From Gottschalkiaceae bacterium SANA (GTDB lineage Bacteria; Bacillota; Clostridia; Tissierellales; GPF-1): a stretch of DNA of 64,000 nt. The position numbers and the translations under genes were made by a program. This document shows positions 49,840-56,575 of this stretch, one piece after another. The DNA lies in assembly GCA_036323355.1 (NCBI GenBank), contig AP028876.1:2666001-2730000 (forward strand), read 5' to 3'. Positions within the stretch are counted from its first letter, which is position 1. Each line of letters begins with the position of its first letter. The notes under the pieces were generated by a model, which worked only from the letters and a program-made list of their open reading frames with translations, had not been told where the DNA came from and did no database searches.

Positions 49840-49905
49840 TCAATAGTCTATATTTACAAAATAATCAGGATTCACCTTTAGTAACTTCATAAACGATAAG
49901 AAAAC

Positions 49906-50148: not shown

Positions 50149-51777
50149 CTATTTATTCTTGCTTTTTTCAAGTTCTTCTAAAGCAATTTGATTTAGATTT
50201 TTTAATTTAAGTGCTGTTGGTGTTAAGCACAATCCACCACGAGCTGTACATCTAAGATCACTAGGTATCTTGCTACCGACAGATGCTGCAGTATCCACTA
50301 CTTCATGAAATGGAATCACAGGATTGATACCGACAGTAGCTAACTCTGAAAATACGATCCCCATCCCTACAGCCACAAACATTCTTGATTGGCATGGGTT
50401 CTCATCTCCACCCGGAAAATAATCACATACAATACCAATAAATGACTGTAAGGCTAACGAGCAAGCCCATTCTACTTGTTTTGGTGTTCCACCCATCATT
50501 TCAGTTAATCCCGCCGCAATGAAGGAGCAAACCATTCCTGCATCACCTGCACATCCAATTGCCTCAGCAGTTGGATCGCAATTAGAATATGCAGTGGAAC
50601 CTACTGCTGCAGCAACAAATAAACCTCTTAGTAGATCTTCATTAGAATAACCATGAATTTCTTTAACTGCTGATAAAGCCGCATATACATACCCACCTCC
50701 TGAACCTTGTGGTCCTGGTACGTAAAGCAATCCCGGGACAAACGGCTTACCTCCTAGCAAATACTTGTAAGCCAATCCAATCGTTGGTCCCGCTAAAAGG
50801 TCATTCCCTTTATTCACTCTAAATTCTTCGTACATTTTATAGTAGTCCGTTAGATAAGGGCGATAAAAGGATTCCATCTCCTCCTCATAAATTGCATGCG
50901 TTCTTCGATGCATTGTTGCAGCAACCGTTTTCTCCATGTATTCAATAACGTCTTCCCGACTCCAGCAAGAAGAATTCATTTCGTATTCAATAGCAATCTC
51001 CGACATCCTTTTATTTTGAGACTCAGCGAGCTTTCGCATGCCTTCTACAGTATTGAATAATTGTTCTTTCTTCTCACGTCTTGTCACTACCGGCAATACT
51101 GGATACATCACCGAAAACTCTAGATCACCAACAACATTCTTAATTTCCTTCTTATCTGGATTATAAGATGTACGGAACCAAAGCATCTTCCCTTTACTTT
51201 CTGCTCTTGAAATATCATGAGCATATATATCGAATTTCTCAATCATTGATCTTTCTAGTTCACTACCCTCTAGTTTGTCTTCTTTGTCAAACACACAAAT
51301 TACAAAAGACTCACCAATTGAATGGAAGGGATAATCATTTACAATAACCGTTTCAATCATACCCCCACCTGTTGAATTTGCAACTAACGATACTACTCTG
51401 CCGCTTTTTCCCTTTAAAACAAATTTAATAGCATTTGGATGAGTACTTTCTTTCATGTCACTAAAACTAAAATTGAATTTGACACCTTTTTCTTCACAAA
51501 CCTCTTTTGCTTCAAATAAAAACTCCCAATCTGGCAAATGACCCAAAGCTCCTGTCAATATTCCCAAATCTTCAGTCATCATACCAAACGTTCCACAAAA
51601 AGATCCATCTGGATCCATAATAGCGAGAATCTCACTCACTTCATCTTCCTCACCTAACAACGAATTACACATGTAACCCATTCTAGCTGGTCCAGCAGTA
51701 TGCGTACTAGAACCAGGCTGCATAATTGGTCCAAATACATTGTTGAAAAAATCCGGATAATTTTTTACGTTCATCAT
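50149..51777 (-). CDS. L-serine dehydratase-like protein, iron-sulfur, fused beta-alpha
   Basis: This encodes a 542-residue enzyme, likely converting L-serine or a related beta-hydroxy amino acid to 2-oxoacid and ammonia with a [4Fe-4S] cluster. The beta domain starts near PGSSTHTAGPARMGY (21-35), a variant of the canonical PSSSHTAGP. The alpha domain (about 340-525) has Cys451 and Cys462 in IVCDYFPGGDENPCQSR and Cys510 in RCTARGGL, the expected cluster ligands, plus GCAGDAG (Cys409). The cluster makes it oxygen-sensitive. It ends the RidA-NhaC-dehydratase operon. Sequence departs from the classic SdaA/SdaB, so the substrate may differ from serine. Confidence 0.85.
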   Translation of the reverse strand: MMNVKNYPDFFNNVFGPIMQPGSSTHTAGPARMGYMCNSLLGEEDEVSEILAIMDPDGSFCGTFGMMTEDLGILTGALGHLPDWEFLFEAKEVCEEKGVKFNFSFSDMKESTHPNAIKFVLKGKSGRVVSLVANSTGGGMIETVIVNDYPFHSIGESFVICVFDKEDKLEGSELERSMIEKFDIYAHDISRAESKGKMLWFRTSYNPDKKEIKNVVGDLEFSVMYPVLPVVTRREKKEQLFNTVEGMRKLAESQNKRMSEIAIEYEMNSSCWSREDVIEYMEKTVAATMHRRTHAIYEEEMESFYRPYLTDYYKMYEEFRVNKGNDLLAGPTIGLAYKYLLGGKPFVPGLLYVPGPQGSGGGYVYAALSAVKEIHGYSNEDLLRGLFVAAAVGSTAYSNCDPTAEAIGCAGDAGMVCSFIAAGLTEMMGGTPKQVEWACSLALQSFIGIVCDYFPGGDENPCQSRMFVAVGMGIVFSELATVGINPVIPFHEVVDTAASVGSKIPSDLRCTARGGLCLTPTALKLKNLNQIALEELEKSKNK

Positions 51778-51795: not shown

Positions 51796-53229
51796 TTATA
51801 AACCTGCTGCCTCATTATTTTCGACTACCTCATCTGTTAATTTCACAAAACCATTTGGCAACATTGAAACCAAGACCGCAAAGATCGGGGTTACCCATAA
51901 GAAAAATGCAAATGGTGCATATTTTAATACCGGAACACCCGTCACTTGTGACATGTAGATAGCAGTACTTGTCCATGGAATAATACCCATGATTAAAGCC
52001 CCTACTGATTGAGACACGGCCGCAACATTTATAGATGCATATCCACTATCGTTATACTTCTTCTTCATCAGATCACATGGTAGTATCAGTGTCATATATG
52101 AATCACTAGTTGCTAGAGCTGTTACCAATCCTGTTGAAACTGTAGCAAGTGCCAGGCCGCCTTTTGATTTGATCTTCGAAAATAACGTTTCCACAATAAC
52201 TTGAAGTGCACCAATCTTAATAATTGCCCCAGCAAAAGCCAATGCCGTAAACATCATTACAATTGCGCCAGACATCATCATCATCCCACCACGATTTGTT
52301 AAAGATTGAAGGATTGGTGACACCTCTGCTGTAGCTATCGTTGAAATATTAAATCCTCTATACATCGTATTAATCGCAAATGAGAGATCAAAATTATTCA
52401 TTATCATGCCAATCATCACTGCTGTCAATCCAGAAAGAATCATTGTAGGTAAAACGGCAATCTTTTTAATACTCAAGAAAACAAGTAGCACTAATGGCAA
52501 TAAAACTAATGGACTTGTATTGAAATACTCAGCGATTTGATTTTTAATTCCACTTACCTGCTCTAACGATGATACACCTGCACTACCAGTAAATCCGAAA
52601 AGCGTATAGACAACAATACAAAATAGTATTGTTGGTGCCGCATATCTCATACATCTTCTTATAACAGACATTACATCCGTATTTCCTTCTGTTGTTGCCA
52701 AGTTTGACATATCTGACATCGGTGATAAAATTTGGCCAATATGAACGCCCGATACAACCGCACCTGCAACCATAGGCATTGATACACCTTGAGCATTCGC
52801 TAAACTGATCATTACAACACCCACTGTACCTGCAGTCCCCCATGAAGTCCCAATAATTGCTGCAACAACTGCACTAATAATAAATGATAAAACAATAATG
52901 AATGAAGGATTAATAATGTTTAGCAAATAATATACCATGACTGGTATTGTTCCTGAAAACATCCATGTTCCAATAATAAAACCAATTGTTATCAATATAT
53001 ACGTTGTTCCAGCAAGAGTCTTTGCTTTTTCTACCATTCCCTCTTCTAATTCATTCCAAGAGTATCCGCATCTTAGCCCAATTAGACATACCCAAACTGT
53101 AGAAATCATTAAAAACGGTATCGCACTTAATCCCTTCATTGCTCCAAAACCAACTGAAGCTAGTAATATTAGCATTGTTGAAAAGGCTTCAATTTTACTT
53201 GGCGCTCGTTTTCCCATCTGTTTCTTCAT
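51796..53229 (-). CDS. NhaC-family Na+/H+ antiporter-like transporter
   Basis: This encodes a 477-residue membrane protein with about 11 helices. Motifs IGTSWGTAGTVGVVMI (about 126-141) and SPMSDMSNLATTEGNTD (about 170-186) are typical of the NhaC superfamily. AAGGAGG precedes the ATG. Members of this group next to amino-acid catabolic genes are likely substrate transporters or antiporters for the amino acid or its product. Here it sits between RidA and the serine-dehydratase-like gene. Confidence 0.88.
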   Translation of the reverse strand: MKKQMGKRAPSKIEAFSTMLILLASVGFGAMKGLSAIPFLMISTVWVCLIGLRCGYSWNELEEGMVEKAKTLAGTTYILITIGFIIGTWMFSGTIPVMVYYLLNIINPSFIIVLSFIISAVVAAIIGTSWGTAGTVGVVMISLANAQGVSMPMVAGAVVSGVHIGQILSPMSDMSNLATTEGNTDVMSVIRRCMRYAAPTILFCIVVYTLFGFTGSAGVSSLEQVSGIKNQIAEYFNTSPLVLLPLVLLVFLSIKKIAVLPTMILSGLTAVMIGMIMNNFDLSFAINTMYRGFNISTIATAEVSPILQSLTNRGGMMMMSGAIVMMFTALAFAGAIIKIGALQVIVETLFSKIKSKGGLALATVSTGLVTALATSDSYMTLILPCDLMKKKYNDSGYASINVAAVSQSVGALIMGIIPWTSTAIYMSQVTGVPVLKYAPFAFFLWVTPIFAVLVSMLPNGFVKLTDEVVENNEAAGL

Positions 53230-53255: not shown

Positions 53256-53603
53256 TCATTTCACAATTATTGCTGAAATTTCCACTAAATACTTCGGATC
53301 AACTAACGTTGCGCCTACTGTGACTCTACATGGTTTATTCCCCTCAAGCATTCCAGAGTATACTTCGTTCATCTTTTCAAAATCGGATACTATGTCCTGC
53401 AAATATACATTTACAAACATAATATCCGATTTTGCTGCTCCCATTTGTTCTACCGCAGCGAACAGGTTATTCAATGCAGCTTTTGTCTGTGAAGAAATGT
53501 CATTCCCAACTAATTCATCCTCGCTGTCGATTGCCAACTGCCCTGAAACAAATCCAATACTATTATTCATCAATGTTTTAGAATATGGTAGTTCTTTTCC
53601 CAT
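53256..53603 (-). CDS. RidA family protein
   Basis: This encodes a 115-residue Rid protein. The pattern PYSKTLMNNSIGFVSGQLAID at the N-terminus and KPCRVTVGATLVDPKYLVEI at the end fit; the catalytic Arg is Arg95 (PCRVTVG). It would hydrolyse the 2-aminoacrylate-type imine released by the dehydratase in the same operon, a natural pairing. The ATG at 53603 is preferred over the adjacent ATG for spacing to GAGGAG. Confidence 0.88.
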   Translation of the reverse strand: MGKELPYSKTLMNNSIGFVSGQLAIDSEDELVGNDISSQTKAALNNLFAAVEQMGAAKSDIMFVNVYLQDIVSDFEKMNEVYSGMLEGNKPCRVTVGATLVDPKYLVEISAIIVK

Positions 53604-53751
53604 CATATCTCCTCACCTCTCATCCATCAAGCATACTCATCCTTCTTCTATTAACGGTTAGTCAGCCATTCAGCAGATTATTTTACATAGATTTTGGCAG
53701 TTGCCGCATCAAAATATCCTCTATAGATCTGCTAGATAAGATCTCATCCAC

Positions 53752-53787
53752 TTATCCTGAATTAAAATTCGAACATTCCTTTCTCAT
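53752..53787 (-). CDS. Possible 11-residue leader peptide
   Basis: An ATG at 53787 has an extended AGGAGGTGGTGAT ribosome binding site and encodes an 11-residue peptide (MRKECSNFNSG) ending at TAA. The frame continues past the TAA for 22 codons (protein-like, ending at 53683). It lies about 15 nt after the predicted transcription start of the RidA-NhaC-dehydratase operon and 150 bp before RidA, so it could be a regulatory leader or the start of a broken small gene. Confidence 0.45.
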   Translation of the reverse strand: MRKECSNFNSG

Positions 53788-53808: not shown

Positions 53809-53837
53809 ACTATATTTCCCGCAAATACTTCCGTCAA
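53809..53837 (-). promoter_or_regulatory. Sigma-70-type promoter of RidA-NhaC-dehydratase operon
   Basis: On the minus strand -35 TTGACG (53832-53837) and -10 TATAGT (53809-53814) are 17 bp apart. I found no GG-N10-GC sigma-54 element in the region, which matters because the adjacent regulator looks like a sigma-54 activator. Confidence 0.7.
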
Positions 53838-53889
53838 AATTTCCATCGAACACAGTACTCTAAATTTTTTTCGTATTTTCCCTAAAAAA

Positions 53890-53928
53890 GAAGCAAGAAG
53901 CGCAAAATATTTTTGCGCTTCTTGCTTC
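53890..53928 (-). terminator. Terminator after AAA/Fis regulator
   Basis: An 18-bp perfect hairpin (53890-53907 with 53911-53928, 3-nt loop). The right side is followed by TTTTT on the plus strand and the left by CTTTTTTAGG on the minus strand, so it works in both directions. It separates the regulator gene from the operon promoter. Confidence 0.92.
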
Positions 53929-53962
53929 TTTTTATTCTCCTAGAACACTAACACAACTCTCA

Positions 53963-55648
53963 TTATGCCTCACGACTACCATTCACTTTTTTAATTCTAT
54001 ATTGCAAATTTTGTCTCTTAATACCTAGCAGTTCAGCCGCTTTAGAAATGTTCCCGCCTGATAATTGTAAAGCGTGCTTTATCATTAATTGTTCTGTTTC
54101 ACAAAGTGCAGATTTTAAAGATTGTTCCATATTTATTCCACCCTTTGTATTTTCATCCTCAAATTCTATGCGTTCCAAAATATATTGTGGAAGAAATTCT
54201 GCTTGAATATAAGTTCCCGATAGAACTATAGGAAACACAGAATCAAGTACATGATTCAATTCATCGTCATTTCCCGGCCAATTGTACTTCTGAATTGCCC
54301 TTATGAATGACTCATCAAACCCTTTCACTTTAATAGAATTTTTCTCATTACTTTTCTTAAGACAATAATTACAAATTTCAATAATATCTCCAAGACGTTC
54401 TCTTAATGGCGGTATATGCAAAATATACGAAAATCCTTGATAAATAAGCTTAGGCAATAGCTTATTTTCTTCTACCATGGTTATAGGGTTCACAATTGTG
54501 GAGTAAATAATACGCACATTTGACATCGTCTTTTTGCTTGCACCCATGCGGTAATAGGTTTGATATTTCATAAACATATAAAGCTTTTTCTGTATTTTCA
54601 TTGGTAAAACATGAATATTATACAGGATCAGCGTTCCATTTTTCGCTTCGTCTAAAACGCCATGTTCAATCACTTTTTTTTCATTTTTTATTATCTCAAA
54701 ACCAAATAATAACTTTTCTACAATTTCTAGTGGACATTCTTCTAAATCAATTGTATACACTTGATTTTTAAGTTGCTTTGTTTTCTTTGTTAGCGTATCG
54801 ATCAACAAATCCTTTTGTGTCCCCATCTCACCATACACACACACATTCTGATTACTAGGTATCTCTTTTGCAAGCTTATACACTCTTAAAACTTTAGTAT
54901 CTTTTGTCTTAAACTTTCTATCAGGTTTACCTTCATTTATAGAGTCACTATTATTCTGCAACAGTATGCGTTTCGACCAACTACTGGCATATTCAAACTC
55001 GTTTACAAATGAAAAAGCACCGATTATTTCTCCATTATCAACCAACGGATAAGTATCTTTAACTACATCACATATTTTTTTATCAATCGTGCTATACTCT
55101 TGACGATAAGCAAGCATTGGTTGTTTAGTATCCATAACATGCTTTAGCGTACTGCCATCATCTCCTAAACAATAAACATCTTTCAAATATTTATTAAGTA
55201 CTCTTCTCTTACTCAATTCATCTAGTTTGGAGTATGCATTATTATATAATACAATTTTTGACTCTTTATCGATTGCAATAATACCTTTTGGTATTGATTC
55301 TAAAATCAAATCCCTAACTTGAGTTGAAACATAAGCTTCTCGAAATACTTCTTCAGCTAAAAAAACAAAACAATCATCGAACTTACATCCAAAAACCTGT
55401 AGTTCTTCCCCATCATCTCTTTGCAATATCGTTACTTTTCCAACATATTCAGCTAATTCTTGGGAAAAATACTTCCTGATACTATCCACGTCAAGATATT
55501 TTAACCCGTAGAAAAACTTATAAAACCTTGGACCGCTTAATTTAATAGCCTTATATGAATCATTAATAATTAATAAATTGTCAAACACATTTGTTCTTTC
55601 TTTACTTTTAATTAACGAAAAAAAACTTACCAATTCCTTGCTGTCCAT
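53963..55648 (-). CDS. Degenerate sigma-54-activator-like regulator (PAS-AAA-Fis)
   Basis: This encodes a 561-residue regulator. An unknown N-terminal domain (1-105) precedes a PAS domain (about 112-215), a AAA+ domain (about 250-490) and a Fis-type helix-turn-helix (NISKAAELLGIKRQNLQYRIKK, 533-554). The AAA+ core is altered: Walker A is GEMGTQKD (273-280), the GAFTGA loop that contacts sigma-54 is missing after LFGFE (314-318), and Walker B reads GTLILYNI (338-345), losing the acidic pair. PPLRERLGDI and WPGN are kept. It therefore probably cannot hydrolyse ATP or open sigma-54 complexes, and may act on the sigma-70-type promoter downstream. The ATG at 55648 follows GGAGGT. Confidence 0.88.
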   Translation of the reverse strand: MDSKELVSFFSLIKSKERTNVFDNLLIINDSYKAIKLSGPRFYKFFYGLKYLDVDSIRKYFSQELAEYVGKVTILQRDDGEELQVFGCKFDDCFVFLAEEVFREAYVSTQVRDLILESIPKGIIAIDKESKIVLYNNAYSKLDELSKRRVLNKYLKDVYCLGDDGSTLKHVMDTKQPMLAYRQEYSTIDKKICDVVKDTYPLVDNGEIIGAFSFVNEFEYASSWSKRILLQNNSDSINEGKPDRKFKTKDTKVLRVYKLAKEIPSNQNVCVYGEMGTQKDLLIDTLTKKTKQLKNQVYTIDLEECPLEIVEKLLFGFEIIKNEKKVIEHGVLDEAKNGTLILYNIHVLPMKIQKKLYMFMKYQTYYRMGASKKTMSNVRIIYSTIVNPITMVEENKLLPKLIYQGFSYILHIPPLRERLGDIIEICNYCLKKSNEKNSIKVKGFDESFIRAIQKYNWPGNDDELNHVLDSVFPIVLSGTYIQAEFLPQYILERIEFEDENTKGGINMEQSLKSALCETEQLMIKHALQLSGGNISKAAELLGIKRQNLQYRIKKVNGSREA

Positions 55649-55661
55649 TAGTACCTCCATT

Positions 55662-55688
55662 TTTGCACTTCGTCCGAGCAAGTGCAAA
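55662..55688. promoter_or_regulatory. Hairpin/dyad just upstream of the regulator start
   Basis: TTTGCACTT (55662-55670) and AAGTGCAAA (55680-55688) form a perfect 9-bp dyad with a 9-nt spacer, 14 bp before the regulator ATG. It could be an autoregulatory operator or an mRNA hairpin that limits ribosome access. Confidence 0.55.
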
Positions 55689-56575
55689 TTTTTTTTGCGG
55701 TTTTACATTTTTTTCAATCTGATAATTGAAAATAAAATTTTTTTCTAAGAACATTCTACATGAAAAATGAATAAATCGCATCTCTAGCTTGAATTATAAA
55801 AAAAATATTATCGAAAACTGCTCTTTCTGCTTTAAATATACACACAGGATCAAATACATCTTCTAGAAAATACGACCATAAATAAGACAAGAAGAAAAGG
55901 AACTTCTTGTAAACAAAATCAACGGACTGACAATGTGAATTGATCGTGCTATCATGCTCAACAGCAAACTATAAACTTGTTGAAATCAAGCCCTCAAAAG
56001 ATGAGATTGTAATTAAAATGCCTTAGGCAAAATTCATGCAAACAAACAAAGCAATCGACAACCTATTCTTACTTGCTGCTGCCTCTTAATATCAACTGAC
56101 ACAATCAAGTAAGGTCCACCGAACAACCGCACAAATATACCATAATTTCAATGTGCTTCAGCAAAATTTTACAAAAATAGATTTATTAGCATATCTAAAT
56201 TTGAGTCTTGACAAGCGTGTAAATTACACTCTGTGCAAACTCCTTGAGACATAATTTTTACTGATTCAATAGCCATAAAATTTATCGACGTTCCCGGATA
56301 ACAACTATTCTGTCCACAAACTTTCATTCCTCATTTCAACTTACCACTTCATTAGTGCTATTGTTCACCGGCATTGATCCGAAACATACCCTCACATGAT
56401 AGTACGTTAATCTTCAAGATTCATTCTCCCACTTCTGTGAACCCGTGTCGTCAGTCGATTGTCTCATGCAAAATGACATACAAAAAAACACAAAACCAAT
56501 CGCTTGGTTTTGTGCCTTAAACGATTTCTATCATTTTCATTTCCTAACTCGATTCACCGTTAGAAAAGATCTTAT
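55689..56575. other. Long intergenic region (about 890 bp)
   Basis: No gene is supported. It holds the promoter of the regulator gene and the end of the thrC-thrB unit. A perfect 13-bp palindrome GTGTAAATTACAC lies at 56217-56229, directly after a TTGACA at 56208-56213, without a -10 at the right distance. A short protein-like frame near 55940-56025 (plus strand) ends in a stop and is too short to name. Confidence 0.4.

Follow-up and report, generated by a model that had tools for sequence, protein, structure and literature searches.

A PAS-AAA-Fis regulator with a heavily altered AAA+ domain, probably a repurposed pseudo-ATPase, beside a ridA-nhaC-dehydratase operon

Introduction

Sigma-54 activators are a textbook case of ATP-powered transcription. 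Departures from the GAFTGA motif of these proteins have been described repeatedly: the accessible sections of PMC3162934 give about 110 homologues with GAFTGA deviations, and those of PMC6615313 list, for Clostridiales, 490 bEBPs, of which 355 carry the exact motif and 100 carry variants. As such, the loss of GAFTGA alone is no novelty.

Several regulators of this kind are known to work at sigma-70 promoters. E. coli DhaR, a bEBP paralogue, is reported to be sigma-70 dependent (PMC3162934), and E. coli TyrR is a sigma-70 regulator (PMC6375630, PMC3162934) whose loop has been deleted, its relatives having nine extra residues (PMC6375630). Alphaproteobacterial NtrC proteins that lack GAFTGA, namely those of Caulobacter and R. 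capsulatus, act at sigma-70 promoters as we propose here for our regulator, and the accessible text of PMC10274813 indicates that ATP binding is still important in R. capsulatus, and the residues of Walker A and Walker B in Caulobacter. VpsR of Vibrio cholerae likewise lacks GAFTGA and acts at sigma-70 promoters (PMC10274813, where it is spelt VspR), has a deleted loop (PMC3162934) and, according to the title of structure entry 7v2b, binds c-di-GMP. In the literature accessible to our search, which mostly lay outside subscription journals, we found neither a description of the protein analysed here nor of a pseudo-ATPase bEBP of such a kind.

Results and Discussion

We analysed a stretch of DNA of 64,000 nucleotides (64 kb; the window) from Gottschalkiaceae bacterium SANA, in which a PAS-AAA-Fis regulator gene lies at 53963..55648 on the minus strand, exactly where, and in the frame in which, an original prediction had placed it. 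The gene starts with an ATG at 55648 that has GGAGGT upstream, ends with a stop at 53963 and encodes 561 aa in an intact reading frame; its 562 codons are open up to the final one, which is the stop, and neither a frameshift nor a truncation is present. A perfect 23-bp inverted repeat with a T-run at 53885..53933, able to form a hairpin, is probably the terminator of the gene.

The predicted PAS-AAA-Fis architecture agrees with the Pfam domains, which are PAS at residues 113-205, Sigma54_activat at 252-403 (77.1 bits, cut-off 20.2), AAA_lid_14 at 416-498 and HTH_8 at 517-554 (45.9 bits, cut-off 22); the bEBP domains PF00158, PF25601 and PF02954 all score above their cut-offs, and the fold matches too. 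In the AlphaFold2 model, the means of 10-residue blocks reach 82-95 pLDDT at residues 251-450 and 92-93 at 521-550, whereas confidence is low for the PAS domain and the N-terminal part, residues 1-92 and 161-197 being below 50 pLDDT. The modelled AAA part matches NtrC1 (1ny5; Z 23.8, rmsd 4.4, 250 aligned) and VpsR (7v2b; Z 20.0, rmsd 5.1, 238 aligned), the latter being a comparison of fold. None of the 25 NCBIfam matches listed reaches its cut-off, and the best over PAS-AAA-Fis is PrdR, the proline reductase regulator, with 175.7 bits against a cut-off of 795.

The AAA+ domain itself is altered in all of its ATP-handling motifs and in loop 1, each given here on the minus strand. The Walker A remnant GEMGTQKD (54809..54832; aa 273-280) keeps the Lys and two Gly, the third Gly having become Gln, the Walker B remnant GTLILYNI (54614..54637; aa 338-345) has Tyr-Asn for Asp-Glu, and the loop 1 region (54659..54700; aa 317-330), which forms two beta strands in the predicted model, reads FEIIKNEKKVIEHG instead of GAFTGA. 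The original prediction had named these three changes, and alignment supports each of them, as it does the retention of WPGN (residues 457-460). It had also counted the R-finger region as kept, which is wrong: where canonical proteins have FREDLYYRL, the regulator reads LLPKLIYQG (54434..54460; aa 397-405), with both Arg and the Asp lost, and the PPLRER retained near this region is not the R-finger. Three further losses had gone unmentioned, namely the sensor II Arg, replaced by Asp in WPGNDDEL (54257..54280; aa 457-464; canonical WPGNxREL), and those of two Asn, at sensor I, where ATN has become STI, and at the switch, where INC has become IDL. Judged from the alignment, loop 1 is replaced in sequence and not cut out: L009 and L115, which are its nearest relatives, have a loop of equal length, and that of the remaining canonical rows aligned is longer by two residues (the row of L001, an unsuitable ORF of that locus, was left out of the motif table).

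In PspF, the residues E108, N64, R162, R168, D164 and R227 have roles in the nucleotide switch and the protomer interface, according to the accessible sections of PMC4132715. The residue changes in our regulator suggest that ATP hydrolysis has been lost, and this is the firmest step in reading the protein as a pseudo-ATPase; the retained Walker A Lys makes nucleotide binding without hydrolysis possible.

Among the described systems, TyrR, which the original prediction had offered for comparison, is a weaker parallel than claimed. It shares with our regulator homologous AAA and Fis domains and the missing GAFTGA, but it keeps the ATPase motifs, that is, Walker A, Walker B (LLDEI), FREDLYYRL and the sensor II Arg, with only the sensor I Asn changed to Gln, and its loop is deleted whereas that of the regulator is replaced. 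Deleted loops also distinguish the alphaproteobacterial NtrC proteins (PMC10274813) from the regulator. The closest parallel is DhaR, which has homologous AAA and Fis domains, a replaced loop 1 and a broken Walker B (LEKI), and has lost the R-finger Arg (FSRQLYYAL), the sensor I Asn (TTT) and the sensor II Arg (WPGNDFEL); unlike the regulator, DhaR keeps the Walker A GxGK and the switch Asn.

Family assignments to either protein were rejected, as the NCBIfam DhaR model gives 116.9 bits against a cut-off of 551 and the TyrR model 91.8 bits against 576. By eye, no dha-kinase-like gene is seen among the ORFs at 43-62 kb, five of which were searched against families. In trees built with and without the catalytic columns, the regulator groups with L115, and without these columns also with L009, both of them activators with a PAS domain that come from the same genome and order, and DhaR falls elsewhere. 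Local supports run from about 0.6 upwards for the groups of the regulator (0.63-1.0) and from 0.0 to 0.94 for the nearest groups of DhaR, so that the placement of DhaR is loose. From these trees, the regulator looks like an independent arrival at the DhaR solution and not like a DhaR.

A bolder version of this idea, which we hold to be doubtful, is that the whole nucleotide switch has been rebuilt. With the Asp-Glu of Walker B turned into Tyr-Asn and the switch Asn into Asp, the Glu-Asn pair has become Asn-Asp, and the R-finger and sensor II Arg are replaced as well. The AAA part could then be a nucleotide-free scaffold fixed in a single state, with the PAS domain, or a partner enzyme encoded in its own operon, acting as the toggle, which would make the regulator a second, independent DhaR-type invention at a great distance from E. 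coli.

The genome contains rpoN, and 12 of 15 other activator loci in it, used as a control, have a -24/-12 site of at least 11/13, with 14 sites in total against a letter-shuffle mean of 1.38 and a maximum of 5. These scores are out of 13 against the -24/-12 consensus, and the main shuffles are of single letters, the two intergenic tests having been repeated with a dinucleotide model. No -24/-12 site is recognisable between the regulator gene and ridA, where the best score, 8/13, is equalled in 1726 of 2000 letter shuffles and in 872 of 1000 dinucleotide-model sequences, and no site scoring at least 12 occurs in the 64-kb window. Upstream of the regulator gene, the best -24/-12-like site scores 10/13 (position 56249) and is equalled in 136 of 1000 dinucleotide-model sequences. 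The proposal that the protein is still sigma-54 dependent, with residual ATP use and a non-canonical loop driving a diverged -24/-12 promoter, could draw on this upstream site, on the P-loop Lys and PPLRER that have been kept and on the AAA fold that is intact in the model. However, given that Walker B, the R-fingers, sensor II, the switch Asn and GAFTGA have all been replaced and that nothing better than 8/13 stands before the operon, we consider it highly improbable.

A candidate sigma-70-type operon promoter, TTGACG-17-TATAGT, is present at 53809..53837 on the minus strand, matches at 10/12 positions and is well placed. The original prediction overstated it as clear, since the 16 sigma-70-type sites in the region are not above chance (13.7 +/- 4.0 in shuffles). 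Directly behind the candidate promoter, at 53752-53787, lies an open frame of 11 codons (MRKECSNFNSG) that has a strong ribosome-binding site. The operon leader RNA folds no better than its shuffles (z = +1.4) and contains no Rfam element above the gathering score; of the weak Rfam matches, those at 53883-54018 are consistent with the long hairpin, and two near 49900 fall outside the leader.

The presumed target operon lies on the minus strand. Its first full-length gene is presumed to be a ridA-like gene (Ribonuc_L-PSP; 53256..53606, 116 aa), followed by an NhaC/ArcD-type antiporter gene identified in family searches (51796..53229, 477 aa) and an iron-sulfur L-serine dehydratase-like gene with SDH_alpha in its C-terminal part (50149..51777, 542 aa). 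Judged by these families, the operon may encode a deamination pathway in which RidA would clear a reactive enamine.

Distant counterparts of the operon differ in their control. In G410, which belongs to the same order, a canonical PAS-AAA-Fis activator (GAFSGA, LDE, FRQDLYYRL) precedes a dehydratase gene (38% identical) and a ridA gene, and a -24/-12 site of 12/13, as good as which none was seen in 2000 shuffles or in 1000 dinucleotide-model sequences, separates the activator from the dehydratase and ridA genes. This activator was rejected as an orthologue of our regulator, being 26% identical over the AAA-Fis part and placed apart in the tree; it is therefore evidence that sigma-54 can control an operon of this type, and not that it ever controlled the present one. 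Nor is such control general for the operon type, because G494, which has the closest dehydratase (51%), has no activator beside it and a best -24/-12 score of 8/13; to our reading, the gene downstream of that dehydratase looks GntR-type by sequence. In G465, covered by the tblastn screen only, there is a dehydratase match and no regulator match. The tblastn setting also misses the ridA of G410, which Pfam finds, so its silence on ridA elsewhere is uninformative.

Some neighbouring observations may be added. A 28-codon stretch just before the full dehydratase gene of G410 (L188, 9631-9714) is 61% identical to the N-terminal part of the dehydratase, and is perhaps the remnant of a duplicate. In G400, a canonical-looking but unusual activator is found near a dehydratase gene. 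An unusual activator type at L015 and L189 (3541-4935) has a GAYTGS loop and LDEA, is missing the first R-finger Arg and, by eye, has no obvious Fis-type end; in G400, an activator of the L015/L189 type adjoins oxoacid oxidoreductase-like genes.

Walker A, Walker B and GAFTGA (counted as kept with at least four of six letters) are all retained in 133 of 137 non-self homologous ORFs, a set that includes two identical pairs and that was drawn from 139 ORFs with an AAA match, two of these being the regulator itself. The four exceptions all come from two SAR116 contigs (L097 and L098), each of which encodes two activator-type proteins without GAFTGA, one per pair being also without the Walker B Asp-Glu.

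The search for orthologues covered two congeners, 249 genomes of the order, 391 of the class and 398 of the phylum, in overlapping draws that each include the own genome, with scores for the top 3-5 candidates of each genome where the draw was large, and with one draw made at a cut-off of 1e-60, at which weaker matches are invisible. No orthologue was found among them, the best other match having 201 bits and 30% identity, and the best match in the congeners 28% identity. Neither did one appear among the viral contigs, among plasmids (top match 28%, all 2065 matches below 60% identity) or in a scan of genome_contigs by exact 8-residue patterns, which a moderately diverged orthologue could escape and in which the 80 of 83 relatives that were kept are all 23-35% identical. 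When the N-terminal part alone was the query, the best other match had 69 bits and 31% identity over residues 103-233, and most matches fell in the PAS region, with one in G400:C56 extending back to residue 49; all of these were rejected as orthologues. The original prediction had held that homologues with an intact GAFTGA would point to a decaying gene; homologues do keep the motif (133/137), which goes half of the way towards refuting its reading, and no orthologue sharing the losses turned up.

Decay would mean that the operon lost its sigma-54 control and that the regulator has since been drifting, its frame open by chance. Besides the retention of the motifs elsewhere, it is favoured by the lack of an orthologue in the searches above, with the gene seen in neither congener, by the low G+C content of 31% in 54001-56000 and by a terminal branch that is the longest of 94 sequences (2.5 substitutions per site against a median of 0.6-0.7). 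No other terminal branch exceeds it when the catalytic columns are removed (1.9); the trees leave out self copies, gappy rows and rows above 85% identity. The statement on length concerns the terminal branch, since with midpoint rooting the root-to-tip distances of other tips are nearly equal (2.66; one is equal by construction).

The same branch also argues against decay. By our own mutation weights and stop arithmetic, about 0.09 stop-making changes are available per nonsynonymous change in the regulator gene, so that long neutral drift along such a branch would have produced tens of stops, whereas none is present, nor any frameshift, in 562 codons. In addition, the losses are concentrated in catalytic columns: of 70 columns at least 80% conserved in 80 non-redundant homologues, 19 count as functional and 51 do not, and the regulator has lost 14 of the former and 17 of the latter (Fisher p = 0.003); the functional columns are our choice from motif knowledge that was later confirmed in part by PMC4132715. 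Excluded from this test were both copies of the regulator itself, L097 and L098 (the SAR116 loci), any row in which gaps numbered more than 60, and sequences that nearly duplicate another at 80% identity. HTH_8 scores more than twice its cut-off, the core is predicted to be well folded, and the branch next in length belongs to DhaR, which is a working regulator. Taken together, the uninterrupted frame, the fold of the model and the fact that the losses do not fall at random make decay unlikely in our view and favour a repurposed pseudo-ATPase; a recent loss of constraint on the gene is possible.

The genome also encodes canonical activators, among them a paralogue (G000:C1:199134-200540) that is 29% identical to the regulator over residues 91-555. 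This, together with an AAA core that is predicted to fold, leaves room for a dominant-negative or regulatory subunit that forms complexes with a paralogue still competent as an ATPase, and in this way modulates a sigma-54 activator in trans. Yet the protomer-interface residues, namely the R-fingers and the Asp, are lost, and the gene, which has no companion activator gene beside it, encodes a Fis HTH of its own and is followed by a metabolic operon that has no -24/-12 site, and we judge such a role to be less probable still than decay.

We therefore return to the pseudo-ATPase, the reading that fits the evidence best and that we consider rather probable: a sigma-54-independent local regulator of the neighbouring operon. 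It is close to what the original prediction had proposed, with the reservation that homologues keep GAFTGA and that the searches gave no orthologue sharing the losses. We infer that the regulator descends from a PAS-AAA-Fis sigma-54 activator, and that its AAA+ domain would no longer hydrolyse ATP or engage sigma-54 and would have a structural role or one in oligomerisation, with a PAS-type sensor on one side of it and a Fis-type DNA-binding domain on the other. The regulator would most likely bind close to the gene that encodes it and to the ridA-nhaC-dehydratase operon downstream, and might there tune transcription by sigma-70-type RNA polymerase, either as a repressor or as an activator, in response to a metabolite or a partner protein. 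A regulator without the motor, the switch and the sigma contact, but with the fold, would be a natural case of how regulators leave the sigma-54 system, all the more so as the distant counterpart operon in G410 still has a sigma-54 promoter and a canonical activator. In addition, proteins of this kind are probably mislabelled when automatic annotation calls them sigma-54-dependent Fis family regulators.

Possible sites of action were sought upstream of the regulator gene. A perfect 9-bp inverted repeat, TTTGCACTT-N9-AAGTGCAAA, lies at 55662-55688 just upstream of the ribosome-binding site, and its core, TTTGCAC-N13-GTGCAAA, has no other exact copy in the genome. This repeat could serve as an operator for autoregulation or form a hairpin in the mRNA; it has no copy at the operon, and no operator common to the upstream regions of regulator and operon was found. 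Farther upstream, at 55712-55731, there is an exact TTTCAAT-N6-ATTGAAA inverted repeat, the sole exact copy in the window.

Between the regulator gene and thrB, about 890 bases (55689-56575) contain no convincing gene, and neither blastn nor tblastx, the latter shown to work, gave a match of this region to the congener and G410 stretches L162, L163 and L188. The dehydratase is absent from both congeners at E up to 1e-45. In G001, the contig ends about 7.5 kb past thrB, with no operon match in the part fetched, and in G002 thrB is followed by other genes. These (L162, 4592-18930), as named from their sequences and from tblastn with window proteins rather than from a family search, encode a transporter, two IclR-type regulators, an NhaC-type antiporter, a kinase, a phosphotransferase and oxoacid oxidoreductase subunits.
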